This document shows, piece after piece, positions 3,062 through 16,395 of a DNA stretch of 24,149 bases; the first letter of the stretch is position 1, and each line of letters opens with the position of its first letter. The DNA is taken from positions 1 through 24,149 of IMG/VR virus record IMGVR_UViG_3300037153_000140; one strand, 5' to 3'. Origin of the DNA: a virus. A program made the position numbers and the translations under genes. The notes beneath the pieces are model-generated. The model made no database searches. It was not told the DNA's origin and saw nothing but the letters and a program-made list of their open reading frames with translations.

Positions 3062-3208
3062 ATGATAAATGAAAAAGCCCGACCGATGGAGTCAGTCAGG
3101 CTTTCCCTCACACCACTGAATGATCTGTCAAAGCGAGGGAAGCCTACCACATTCACCCTTGCCATTCAATCGAATACCTACGCCGCCCTATTCAAGGAGA
3201 CGCCATGA
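3062..3208 (+). CDS. Possible 48-aa leader ORF before helicase
   Basis: A short frame of 48 codons beginning MINEKARPMESVRLSLTPLN. Its TGA overlaps the helicase ATG (ATGA), which would couple translation. There is no strong ribosome binding site at its own start. It also overlaps a terminator-like hairpin at 3074-3104, so the RNA may be regulatory and not coding. No family recognised. Confidence 0.3.
   Translation: MINEKARPMESVRLSLTPLNDLSKRGKPTTFTLAIQSNTYAALFKETP
3074..3104 (-). terminator. Terminator-like hairpin, best on the minus strand
   Basis: On the minus strand AAAGCCTGAC pairs with GTCGGGCTTT over 10 bp with one T-G wobble, loop of 11 bases, then a run of five T ending CATTT. On the + strand the stem carries a C-A mismatch and is followed by only three T bases, so it would be weak there and might act as an attenuator of helicase transcription. 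Confidence 0.4.
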
Positions 3209-4842
3209 CAGATGACCTCACGTTGCCCAGGAATAAGGAAATCGAAAAGGCCGTCCTCGGCGCCCTGCTCCTCTCGGAGTCGCCCGAGCGGATAAAAGAG
3301 GTCCGCGAGAAGGCCGGCCCGGATTGCTTCATGGCGCAGGCCCGCGAGATTTACCAATGCCTGTGCGAGATGGCCGACCGGGGAGACTCGATCAACCCCG
3401 TCATGCTTTGGACCCGGCTCAAAGAGCGCAACCCGTCGGCCGACGCTTCGACGATCGCAATGTTGACCGACGACGCTCCGATCCGCTCGGACCTCTCGAC
3501 GGAGATCGCCGAATTGAAGAAGCTGGCGACCCTCCGGGCCGTCCAGTATTACGCGAACTATCTGACGGTCGAATCCCAGGCCAAGGACGTAGACGTTTCG
3601 GCCCTCCTCGAAGGCATTAAGACGCGCGCGGCGGATTTCGACGAGATGGCCTCGGCCGGCGAATCTGGGGCTTTCCCTTTGACCCCCGGCTTCTACGCCA
3701 ACCTGCGCGAACTACACGCCAAAGAGACCGTCCCGGCTGAAGACTTGATGATCGGAGTCCGGCGCCGTCAAGTGACGATCTTCGCCAGCGTTACAAACGT
3801 CGGCAAAACTACCGTTATGTTGAATCACGCGCTCGCGGCAGCCGGCGGTCAATCCTGGTCTCCGCTACTTCCCGAGCGGCCTGAGCGGCCCTTAAAAATC
3901 GTCTTCATTGACGCCGAGAGTACCGATGACGAACTCAAGCGGGACACTCAAACAATGCTCAGGACGATCGGAAATGGCGAGATCGCGGCGGAAAACTTCA
4001 TCCCGGTTGTGGAGGCCACGATCAACGGCGAGACGCTCAACCTTTCCGATAAAAAACACTTTGAGCACATAAAGCGGTTCATTAAATACCATCAGCCGGA
4101 TATTGCTATTTTCGATACGCTCAGTTCCCTTTTTACTCTCTACAGCGAGAACGATAACGCCGAAGTAGTTCGCAAGGTAATACGCCCGCTCAAAGAGCTG
4201 GCGATTGCCGGGAATTGCGCCGTTTGGGTATCTCACCATATTGGGAAAGCCGGGGAGTCCGACGAGACCGAGGAGGCTTACCGGGGGCGGGGGGCCTCGG
4301 CCTTCGGGGGAAACGTCCGAGGGGTTATCACTCTCAGGAAGGAGAAAGCCCTCGGGGACGGATATGTTCGCCTGACCCTGGGCAAGTCCAAGGGGTCGAA
4401 ACTGGAGCCGGTTAATCTCAAGCTGGACTTCGCCAAGCGAGCTTTCGAACTCTGCGCAACGGCGCCTCAGTCACAGACGCCATATCAACAAGTCATCGGG
4501 GTGTTCAACGGAAAGCCGCTCAAGACGGGAGAGATTAAGAAACTGCTCTCCGACCTTTCAAGACCGACGGTTGAGCGGACTTTGACTGAGGCGATTAAAA
4601 ATGGAGACCTACGCCGCACAACTCACGGCGCCTACGAGCGGCCTAATAATCCGCAAAAAACCGATTCCCTCAATTCCCTCACTCCCTATAGGGATGAGGG
4701 AATTGAGGGAATCGCCCAAATCGAAGACAGCGAAGAGGTTGCGGGATTTTTCGATGAAGTGTCCGAAAATGGGATGAGGGACTTTTCGGAGGCGCCCGAA
4801 GAGACCGACGAAGACCGCTACCTCGACGCGATCGACGACTAA
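3205..4842 (+). CDS. DnaB/RepA-like replicative helicase
   Basis: A 545-aa protein. Residues about 8-125 resemble the helical DnaB N-terminal domain (NKEIEKAVLGALLLSESPE). Residues about 175-380 are a RecA-fold ATPase of the RepA/AAA_25 type. The P-loop is SVTNVGKT (195-202, Ser where Gly is usual), Walker B ends at D304 in IAIFDTLSS, a VSHH motif lies at 342-345, and a SAFGGNVRG segment with a likely arginine finger follows. About 425-480 looks like a winged helix, before an acidic tail. It probably unwinds the phage origin as a hexamer. ATG 3205 has AAGGAG upstream. A large translated palindrome sits in the tail linker. No primase is fused or adjacent, so the host primase may serve. Confidence 0.85.
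   Translation: MTDDLTLPRNKEIEKAVLGALLLSESPERIKEVREKAGPDCFMAQAREIYQCLCEMADRGDSINPVMLWTRLKERNPSADASTIAMLTDDAPIRSDLSTEIAELKKLATLRAVQYYANYLTVESQAKDVDVSALLEGIKTRAADFDEMASAGESGAFPLTPGFYANLRELHAKETVPAEDLMIGVRRRQVTIFASVTNVGKTTVMLNHALAAAGGQSWSPLLPERPERPLKIVFIDAESTDDELKRDTQTMLRTIGNGEIAAENFIPVVEATINGETLNLSDKKHFEHIKRFIKYHQPDIAIFDTLSSLFTLYSENDNAEVVRKVIRPLKELAIAGNCAVWVSHHIGKAGESDETEEAYRGRGASAFGGNVRGVITLRKEKALGDGYVRLTLGKSKGSKLEPVNLKLDFAKRAFELCATAPQSQTPYQQVIGVFNGKPLKTGEIKKLLSDLSRPTVERTLTEAIKNGDLRRTTHGAYERPNNPQKTDSLNSLTPYRDEGIEGIAQIEDSEEVAGFFDEVSENGMRDFSEAPEETDEDRYLDAIDD
4663..4713. repeat. 51-bp palindrome inside the helicase gene
   Basis: A 19-base arm (4663-4681) is perfectly inverted at 4695-4713. The centre TCCCTATAGGGA (4683-4694) is itself a palindrome, leaving one unpaired C at 4682. 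Each arm is made of two near-copies of a nine-base unit, so the peptide reads NSLNSL then TPYRDE then GIEGI. GGGATGAGGGA from the right side recurs at 4771-4781. The RNA would form a stem of about 25 bp within the coding region. Confidence 0.9.
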
Positions 4843-4856
4843 AAGGAGGGATTCTA

Positions 4857-5138
4857 ATGAACGCCAAGGCCAAAGGGTCGAGAACGGAATATAAATCTAT
4901 CGCCCTGCTCGAAGCCCAGGGCTACAAATGCACCCGAGCGGCGGCGAGTCTGGGGGTCTTCGACATCATCGCGATAGGCCCGACCGACATTCAGCTTGTG
5001 CAATGTAAGTCGAACAGGTGGGCGGGCGCCGAGGAGATGGAGACCATGCGCCAATTCCCTGCCCCGCCGAATGCCTGGAAGTTGGTTCACAGATGGCGAG
5101 ACCGGCAATCGGAGCCGGATATTCGGATTGTCGCTTAA
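4857..5138 (+). CDS. Small PDDEXK-type nuclease
   Basis: A 93-aa protein with the compact restriction-endonuclease core: E11 in the first helix (GSRTEYKSIALLE), D36 in LGVFDIIAIG, and Q49-C-K51 in LVQCKSNRW. This E...D...QxK layout is the catalytic pattern of Holliday-junction-resolvase and VRR-type nucleases, where Q sometimes replaces E. A perfect AGGAGG ribosome binding site precedes the ATG, 14 bases after the helicase stop, so the two are co-transcribed. It probably cuts branched or damaged phage DNA during replication or packaging. A role in restricting other DNA cannot be excluded. Its family was assigned by motif only. Confidence 0.75.
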   Translation: MNAKAKGSRTEYKSIALLEAQGYKCTRAAASLGVFDIIAIGPTDIQLVQCKSNRWAGAEEMETMRQFPAPPNAWKLVHRWRDRQSEPDIRIVA

Positions 5139-14474: not shown

Positions 14475-15050
14475 ATGTCGGACACTCTTACTTTTCCGAA
14501 AGCTGAGGACACCGAGGCTCCGCCGAAACGAAAGCGGAGCCTCGAATCTATCGCAAAACAGAAGGCCTCAAACGCGGCGCGGCGCGCCGAGAAGTCCAGC
14601 GCCGTGGACGTGAAGACCGGCCTCGACACCGAAGACCTTGCGGAAATGGAATACGCCCGCAAGTTAGCCGAGGCCGAGGCGCGAATCAAAGAACAAGCCA
14701 TCCCTGAAGACAACCGGCTCATGGTCCATCAGGAGGTCAAGATCGACGTCTTCAATACCCTGAGACGCTACGTCGAACTGACTCCTTCCATGTGCGATGT
14801 TCGCAATTGCCCTTTCGATGCGGCGATCGAAGCCGGGTGCGCGGGCTGGAGCGAGGCGCCCGTGGATCAGCCGATGTCGGACGGTAAAACATTTGGCGAA
14901 AGGCTGATCCAGATGCGGGACTATCACAAGGCCACGGCCCACGTCGTTCGGCCGGACGATAGTCACATCATCACGGCGGCGGAAATGCACAAAAGACAAT
15001 GGTCGGTAGGCAACAGCGTCAAGGGAGACTTCCTGAAAGGCGCGAGGTAG
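14475..15050 (+). CDS. Unknown structural-cluster protein
   Basis: A 191-aa protein. The first about 85 residues are basic and helical (PKRKRSLESIAKQKASNAAR, then ARKLAEAEARIKE). The C-terminal part has four Cys in a short region (TPSMCDVRNCPFDAAIEAGC, with a third Cys), possibly a metal site or disulphides, and a conserved-looking end (MRDYHKATAHVVRP, HIITAAEMHKRQW). AAGGAG precedes ATG by seven bases. It lies between small basic proteins and the adaptor, suggesting a minor head protein. No family recognised. Confidence 0.65.
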   Translation: MSDTLTFPKAEDTEAPPKRKRSLESIAKQKASNAARRAEKSSAVDVKTGLDTEDLAEMEYARKLAEAEARIKEQAIPEDNRLMVHQEVKIDVFNTLRRYVELTPSMCDVRNCPFDAAIEAGCAGWSEAPVDQPMSDGKTFGERLIQMRDYHKATAHVVRPDDSHIITAAEMHKRQWSVGNSVKGDFLKGAR

Positions 15051-15054
15051 CAGT

Positions 15055-15246
15055 ATGGCCAAGAAATCCATGAAGCTCGGCGGCGGCGGCCGTTTCGCTA
15101 AAGTGGCGGCGGCGGCGAAGCGGAGCGGGGCGAAAAACCCGGCGGCGGTCGCGGCGGCGGCCGGACGTGAAAAGTACGGAAAGCAAAAATTCCAGCAACT
15201 TGCAGCCGCTGGAAGACGGAGAGCGACCAGAAAACGAGCCATGTAA
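15055..15246 (+). CDS. Highly basic small protein
   Basis: A 63-aa protein beginning MAKKSMKLGGGGRFAKVAAA, made largely of Ala, Lys, Arg and Gly. The end (LAAAGRRRATRKRAM) is a string of arginines and lysines. Composition resembles a protamine- or histone-tail-like DNA-binding peptide. A GAGG site is five bases from the previous stop. The last 22 residues are closely repeated in a remnant at 15626-15694, showing a gene duplication. Whether it is packaged in the virion is unknown. Confidence 0.7.
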   Translation: MAKKSMKLGGGGRFAKVAAAAKRSGAKNPAAVAAAAGREKYGKQKFQQLAAAGRRRATRKRAM

Positions 15247-15594
15247 TCATGAGACCCAGAAGGCGGGAAAAACACGTCGCCCCCTATTGGAGCATGACTT
15301 ACTACAATATCGCTGCTCTTGATAGCCGGGATGATGATAAAACTCTTGCTGACACCACCAGCATACGGAAGGACTCATGAAGCGTTTTCCTTTATTCACC
15401 GGTACAGCCGGCAGGGTTTTCGCACAATCATGGTGAAGCTGATGGCAACGCTTACAAAGAGTTTCCAGGTTGTTAGGGTTATTATTTGCGTGATCTTCAT
15501 CTTTATGATGTACGACTAAGTGTTTTACTGAATTACAACGTTCGCATGCGGATTTCAGGAATGTTCTATATAGCCGAAAGTTTCTACTACTCAT
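15247..15594 (-). CDS. HNH homing-type endonuclease
   Basis: A 115-aa nuclease on the strand opposite to its neighbours. Features in order: C17xxC20, H29/H30, D32 and H35 (HHKDEDH), N42 in NPNNLETLC, then C47xxC50 and H54/H55, the classic zinc-bound HNH fold. A second zinc-ribbon-like segment follows, C78xxC81 and C97xxxC101, often found in phage HNH proteins. Codons are visibly more A/T-rich than the flanking genes. The start at 15594 is chosen because the protein from there reads as HNH family; an ATG at 15621 is also possible, and neither has a good ribosome binding site. It would cut a homologous sequence lacking it and copy itself in. Confidence 0.9.
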   Translation of the reverse strand: MSSRNFRLYRTFLKSACERCNSVKHLVVHHKDEDHANNNPNNLETLCKRCHQLHHDCAKTLPAVPVNKGKRFMSPSVCWWCQQEFYHHPGYQEQRYCSKSCSNRGRRVFPAFWVS

Positions 15595-15625
15595 GTACAA
15601 GACAATAACACATTTTCGCATCAAC

Positions 15626-15694
15626 GGGCAAAAGAAAATGACGGCCCTCGCGCAGGCCGGAAAGCGCCGAGCGGCAAAAAGACGGGCAATGTAA
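15626..15694 (+). pseudogene. Remnant of a paralogue of the basic protein
   Basis: The + strand reads GQKKMTALAQAGKRRAAKRR then AM and stop. It aligns with the end of the protein at 15055-15246 (GKQKFQQLAAAGRRRATRKR then AM): identical at key positions and the same stop context. The matching upstream part would be the RRREK at about 15261-15272, left of the HNH gene, since the intact copy has REKYGKQK at the same point. The gene was probably duplicated and then split by the HNH insertion. A short expressed ORF from 15593 (33 aa) is also possible. Confidence 0.6.
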
Positions 15695-16395
15695 TGGCCA
15701 CGGTCAACGCGATAGCCTTATCGCTAATCACTGAAGCGGAAGAGTCAACGGACGACACGGGATTCGTCACGAAGATCGAAAAGCGCGTCAATGAGGCGCT
15801 CCAGGAGATCGGCCTTGCGGCGAACTTCAATCCGTTTCGCGCCCGCTCGACTTTCGCTACGGCCGCCACAACTCCGACCTACAACCTACCCGCGAAGGCC
15901 AGCCAGATCGTACAGCTCCGGTTTACCGTTGACGGCGTCCCGATTCCGATGCGAACAGTCCAGGAATTGAGTCGTCTTGGGCTGCGCCTAGAAGATACCG
16001 GGCGGCCTCAATGTTGGGTCGAAGACGGAGTCCTTCAATCCGGCGCTAACAACCTGGTCCGTATCCGTCTCGTTCCGGTTCCTGTCGATATCGAGAATAT
16101 CGAAGAGGAACACTACTTCGACCCTACGGATACCGCCTCCGCCTCGAATCTCGAAGTCCCGGATTCATTTCTGGTTTGCGTCAGGCTTCGCGTTCAAGTG
16201 GCTATGCTCATAAATGACGGTAAGTATACCGCCGCCGCTTTAATTCAGAGACAGTACGACAAGAATCTGGAGAGGCTTGTTGACCGCGAGCATCAGAAGC
16301 CATCGCAGAAGATCGTTTTAAAGGAAGTGGATATAGTAAACGTCCGCAGGCGCCGAGGGCCGCGCCTCCCTGGCAACTACGACGACAGATGGTAA
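15694..16395 (+). CDS. Head-tail adaptor protein
   Basis: A 233-aa protein beginning MATVNAIALSLITEAEESTD. Its layout fits podovirus-type adaptors that plug below the portal: helical N-terminus, a beta region (ASQIVQLRFTVDGVPIPMRT), a loop with RPQCWVEDGV and LVRIRLVPVP, then FDPTD and long C-terminal helices (LRVQVAMLINDGKYTAAALI), ending in a basic disordered tail (NVRRRRGPRLPGNYDDRW). Its ATG overlaps the remnant's stop (TAATG). It joins the portal to the tail nozzle. Identification is by pattern and order. Confidence 0.75.
   Translation: MATVNAIALSLITEAEESTDDTGFVTKIEKRVNEALQEIGLAANFNPFRARSTFATAATTPTYNLPAKASQIVQLRFTVDGVPIPMRTVQELSRLGLRLEDTGRPQCWVEDGVLQSGANNLVRIRLVPVPVDIENIEEEHYFDPTDTASASNLEVPDSFLVCVRLRVQVAMLINDGKYTAAALIQRQYDKNLERLVDREHQKPSQKIVLKEVDIVNVRRRRGPRLPGNYDDRW

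Follow-up and report, generated by a model that had tools for sequence, protein, structure and literature searches.

Homing genes usually spare the host gene by residing in introns or inteins, by occupying intergenic sites, or by dividing a gene that can function in two pieces. Among phages, the free-standing HNH and GIY-YIG enzymes of the T4 type, such as Seg and Mob, move their flanking DNA by co-conversion (PMC2988022). Other phage homing genes split the gene in which they lie, as mobE does in nrdA of Aeh1 and mobA in gene 60 of T4 (PMC2988022). The mORFs of fungal mitochondria carry foreign C-termini that are joined in phase to the host gene, and the native C-termini are left behind. Examples are known from atp6 of Allomyces macrogynus and from atp6, atp9, cox2 and nad3 of Glomus sp. 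(PMC3630166). A replacement gene end is a further route for a homing gene, known from fungal mitochondria and with no reported case found in phages. Full-text literature searches with partial coverage returned no report of a phage homing element that carries a gene end, and keyword searches of two surveys of phage HNH genes (PMC10448857, PMC12724721) retrieved no such case. Here, we describe a phage locus in which an HNH insertion appears to have supplied a new 3' end to the gene it entered.

The basic gene and its two 3' ends

The locus lies in IMG/VR virus record IMGVR_UViG_3300037153_000140, which was analysed over its whole length of 24,149 bp (the window). The window encodes a portal protein of the SU10/P22 type, a major head protein, an SU10-type adaptor and tail genes. 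An ORF at 907-2166, judged by eye to resemble a tyrosine-recombinase integrase, suggests that the phage is temperate. The interval from a 191-aa gene to the adaptor gene holds a 63-aa basic ORF (15055-15246, plus strand), a minus-strand HNH ORF and, up to 15694, an in-frame orphan fragment (Table 1). A preliminary description had placed an A/T-rich HNH ORF between two pieces of similar coding sequence, and both points are borne out. The insert has a GC content of 44.6% against 56.4% for the window. The orphan fragment GQKKMTALAQAGKRRAAKRRAM, in frame at ~15628-15694, is found with a profile of the gene tail (E = 3.5e-5), and its alignment with that tail scores 62, compared with a mean of 36 and a maximum of 54 for shuffled sequences. 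The C-terminal similarity is therefore real. The motif RRREK, which had been read as part of a left paralogue piece, comes merely from reading the HNH C-terminus (GRRVFPAFWVS) in antisense, and to the left of the HNH gene there is no start of a paralogue.

Adaptor relatives are encoded by four viral contigs (L001 to L004). L002 shares ~75-78% DNA identity with the window across both flanks and lacks the HNH gene. It has one basic gene, followed directly by the adaptor gene. The 5' two thirds of this gene match window positions 15055-15179, and its 3' third matches the orphan at 15628-15694. In a BLASTN comparison, the alignment ends near window position 15188 and restarts at 15624; the two segments are contiguous in L002, with an overlap of a few bases. 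The right junction agrees base for base with the L002 tail. The HNH gene is thus polymorphic in presence and absence at this site between collinear flanks, a comparison of filled and empty sites that rests on one close HNH-less relative. L001 is a second IMG/VR record of the same virus, with two differences in 8,699 bp and identical junctions. The adaptor proteins of the more distant L003 and L004 (2701-4010 in each) are 63-64% identical to that of the window, and the small basic gene is absent between the same two neighbours. It follows that the basic gene is dispensable or has moved in that lineage.

Table 1. Features of the locus, with positions in the window
Feature	Position	Strand	Remarks
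191-aa gene	14475-15050		Left neighbour of the 63-aa basic ORF
Native head of the single basic gene, codons 1-41/42	15055-15179	+	98/125 bases match L002; GC3 80.5%
Left ACGG at the junction	15176-15179	.	Identical to the right copy and to the one ACGG in L002
Replacement 3' end of the basic gene, most likely carried in, in frame, KQKFQQLAAAGRRRATRKRAM; stop TAA 15244-15246	15180-15246	+	35/67 bases match L002; GC3 39.1%; KxKFQ class
Terminator-like hairpin for the HNH transcript, antisense within the putative carried tail	15190-15214	-	T tract toward 15180
HNH endonuclease gene, 115 aa from ATG 15594	15247-15594	-	PHROG and Pfam profiles, L128 homology
Leader of 33 bp ahead of the HNH gene, forming the insert's right end	15595-15627	-	Absent from L002; homology restarts at 15624
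Right ACGG at the junction	15624-15627	.	Equals the single ACGG of L002 and the left copy
Native 3' terminus of the basic gene, now orphaned, QKKMTALAQAGKRRAAKRRAM; stop TAA 15692-15694	15628-15694	+	Matches L002 tail at 55/67 bases and 19/21 residues
Adaptor gene	15694-16395		Right neighbour; start overlaps the stop TAA of the orphan tail

The insert of ~448 bp (15180-15627) comprises the HNH gene, in antisense, and an alternative 3' end that continues the reading frame of the invaded gene. Its left edge may lie up to ~15 bp earlier, within ~15164-15179, since the window has GREK where L002 has GIAK. The head of the basic gene matches L002 at the level of the flanking background, and over the 67 bases past the junction the orphan tail is much closer to L002 than the in-frame tail is. 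Twelve bases separate the orphan from L002. Because 8 of these lie in synonymous codons and the other 4 account for two conservative replacements, the orphan tail seems to have been under selection until recently. Tails of a KxKFQ variant class occur elsewhere in the family, and the in-frame tail is one of this class; it shares 13 of 15 residues with tails of the L056 type, against 8 of 15 with its own orphan. Both tails end in RAM, an unusual ending that also occurs in L002. Since the inserted tail keeps this ending, either the donor must be close or the ending has converged.

Composition also separates the in-frame tail from its head. The HNH gene has a GC3 of 40.8% and the orphan one of 63.6%, and a value as low as that of the in-frame tail is reached in 1.8% of the 23-codon windows of ten structural genes. 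From head to tail, GC3 drops by 33 points, more than in any other of 95 distinct family genes and compared with 2 points in L002. The low GC3 and this drop indicate that the in-frame tail most likely arrived together with the HNH gene. Head and tail form one continuous 63-aa ORF of normal length for the family. The copy that had been described as intact and spared is thus a hybrid of the native head and the tail brought by the insert.

The basic protein family is represented in at least 434 viral stretches. It matches no family in Pfam or PHROG, and a search for solved relatives gave nothing convincing, so that its earlier description as a virion protein is putative. The family is common in uncultured virus contigs, yet searches of 50,697 annotated phage genomes with two basic proteins, the adaptor and an L128 neighbour gave no relatives. 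Neither the adaptor nor the HNH gene had a relative in prokaryote genome contigs. In L213 (4330-4680), the basic-family domain does not stand alone and is fused behind a His/Ala/Gly-rich N-terminal stretch.

The HNH gene, its hairpin and its relatives

The HNH protein consists of an HNH core and a C-terminal Cys2-Cys2 finger; its start codon was picked by homology to L128. It matches PHROG HNH families with E-values down to 3e-9 and Pfam HNH_3 at E = 0.0012, with a score that falls short of the curated cut-off. The HNH and Cys residues are conserved in the alignment of homologues, and the C, H, D, N and H columns are invariant. The closest homologue, from L128, is 46-48% identical, including the C-terminal zinc finger. 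A weak profile match links the protein to I-HmuI (PDB 1u3e; E = 0.003). The top matches of a PDB fold search with a structural model (pLDDT 79.5) include nuclease folds, none with E < 0.1. The gene is of the homing type and is inserted in the basic gene; its product would be expected to cleave DNA. A search for a sigma-70-like promoter near the HNH gene found none.

Read on the minus strand, the tail contains a hairpin with an 11-bp stem, followed by TTTTTGCTTT; the hairpin lies 33 bp beyond the stop of the HNH gene. Its energy is -15.1 kcal/mol (z -3.0). The corresponding stretch of L002 has no terminator-like hairpin, and no antisense hairpin of this kind occurs in the other family genes examined. 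The window has two strong minus-strand terminator-like sites, of which this hairpin is one. The other, with a 16-bp stem, lies at 3071-3107, just left of a replicative helicase-like gene at 3205. If the HNH gene is expressed, its transcription would be predicted to end at the hairpin. The putative carried tail appears to double as the code for a C-terminus on one strand and as the HNH terminator on the other. The insert looks like a compact unit of terminator and tail, HNH gene and 33-bp leader, bounded by the two ACGG junctions.

The association between this HNH clade and the basic family recurs. The L128 HNH gene overlaps a member of the same basic family tail-to-tail, and a scan with both HNH proteins revealed the same pairing, with overlapping stop codons, in L213/L214 and L217. 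Homologous HNH genes thus lie tail-to-tail with basic-family genes in three other divergent lineages (L128, L213 and L217). Wherever a basic-family gene lay within 4 kb of an HNH gene in that scan, the two abutted and converged; less related HNH genes were mostly placed otherwise. Two further close relatives are also tail-to-tail with their neighbours, with stops 4-25 bp apart or overlapping. One abuts a head-morphogenesis gene (L212:475-936 with 911-1609; PHROG 1657, E = 2e-38). The other, in L215/L216 (L215:2417-3115 with 3119-4975), adjoins a 618-aa gene amid head-region genes, which is portal-like in its length and surroundings. The arrangement in L212 and L215 suggests a habit of the clade of landing at the 3' ends of virion-region genes.

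No stranded tail was seen in L210, L212, L213, L215, L216 or L217. No convincing compositional break was found in the gene tails of L128 and L217; the comparison for L213 used a misplaced head/tail boundary and carries no information. Without a break or a stranded tail, the three other paired lineages give no proof of tail carriage there. In a search for duplicated gene ends at 80 viral HNH loci, the window alone stood out, and the next matches look like low-complexity chance. As no stranded tail was seen in the other lineages, they may be examples of ordinary residence, and the window may preserve a transfer whose trace can still be seen. A more general proposal, which we hold tentatively and regard as somewhat less than an even prospect, is that the clade is a specialist of 3' gene ends in the virion region, with stops touching tail-to-tail. 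Such elements would carry the last codons of the target as a cut-resistant replacement that doubles as their own transcription terminator. The basic gene would be the chief target, used by the clade in at least four lineages of phages, and portal-like and head-morphogenesis genes would be others.

Origin of the hybrid gene

The locus is probably the product of a single invasion. A homing HNH element of ~448 bp from a donor phage is likely to have entered the single basic gene at conserved KYG codons. It would have brought the end of the donor's gene with it and kept the reading frame whole, and its far side would have been joined at the cut through the 4-bp match ACGG. In a mixed infection, the HNH enzyme of the donor would make a cut or nick in the recipient gene, at ACGG^GCAAAAG or close by. 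The left broken end could then pair with the homologous head of the donor's gene and be lengthened by copying of the donor tail and of the HNH gene that converges on it. With no homology used on the right side, the new strand would join the right broken end at ACGG; a filled-in staggered cut is an equally possible source of the 4-bp match. The outcome would be a basic gene of hybrid origin, followed by the HNH gene in antisense and, beyond it, by the native tail, left stranded. Cutting, invasion by the left end, copying and joining of the right end at ACGG would explain every junction. Since the hybrid site no longer contains the uncut site, the enzyme probably spares the hybrid gene. A search of viral contigs with a degenerate tail pattern yielded no donor phage, the matches being distant family members and the same virus.

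The preliminary description had instead proposed a homing gene in the second of two tandem paralogues, with the first spared. Its view that an HNH gene entered a copy of the basic gene stands, given the uninterrupted site in L002, but the copy that was hit was the sole one. Two C-termini are indeed present in the window. However, the single gene of L002 joins the supposedly intact head to the supposed remnant tail, and no continuous second paralogue can be reconstructed from the flanks, an outcome that the preliminary description had itself named as refuting its model. The window contains no 5' half of a second copy, none of ~107 family loci that were read has two copies, and L002 would have to carry a deletion precisely at the window's junction. 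Tandem paralogues are therefore very improbable. Somewhat more credible, though still unlikely, is a duplication of the phage's own tail, either beforehand or during break repair, with the HNH gene between the copies and later divergence of the in-frame copy. The shared RAM ending and the identity of the two tails at 39 of 67 bases fit such a history. It would require the in-frame tail to have changed much faster than the orphan, toward another natural variant (the L056 type), while also shifting to the GC3 of the HNH gene and gaining a terminator.

The remaining explanations carry far less weight. Two usable tails of one frame class beside a nuclease gene could form a cassette that alternates the two C-termini by recombination at ACGG. 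This is barely plausible for tails sharing 4 bp at the junctions, with no recombinase sites and an HNH enzyme that is not a recombinase, and L001 is in the same state. An intron that splices the head to the orphan tail is just as improbable, even though HNH genes within coding regions are often intronic: no group I or II intron in Rfam matches 14800-16000 even at E up to 5, the HNH gene is antisense, and even without splicing the basic gene has an end in frame and a stop. Metagenome contigs can be chimeric, yet the chance of an assembly artefact is negligible, given the identical junctions in L001 and the exact right junction with the L002 tail.

If invasion with a donor gene end is the true course of events, the element moves protein variants between phages. 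The stranded native tail would then record a single homing event, and the junctions would reveal the way in which the break was closed. Because the HNH clade pairs repeatedly with one small gene family, its recognition of the target can be tested directly.

Comparison with known homing systems

The HNH core is shared with I-HmuI (PDB 1u3e). That enzyme is encoded in an intron, unlike the window locus, which has none. As with mobE and mobA, a homing gene lies inside a phage gene. Those genes are split into two polypeptides, whereas here a new end is supplied and one polypeptide persists. The resemblance to the Seg and Mob enzymes of T4 extends to a nuclease core (here HNH) with a C-terminal DNA-binding module, to a position beside or near the putative target gene, and probably to the transfer of a flank by co-conversion. 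In contrast to those enzymes, which lie between genes and use homology on both sides, one side of the window element was apparently joined at the cut site, and the old gene end was left in place.

The closest parallel is with the fungal mORFs. In both, an endonuclease element within a gene supplies a foreign 3' end in phase, which here yields the 63-aa hybrid. In both, the native end lies downstream and is closer to relatives than the inserted end is, in most cases in fungi and by 55/67 against 35/67 bases here. The fungal elements are mitochondrial, larger, of the LAGLIDADG or GIY-YIG type, and read with the host gene, whereas the phage element spans 448 bp, has an antisense HNH gene and contains a terminator-like hairpin within the putative carried tail. 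We do not class it among the mORFs or claim common descent with them; by analogy, the window element appears to work as a fungal mORF does.
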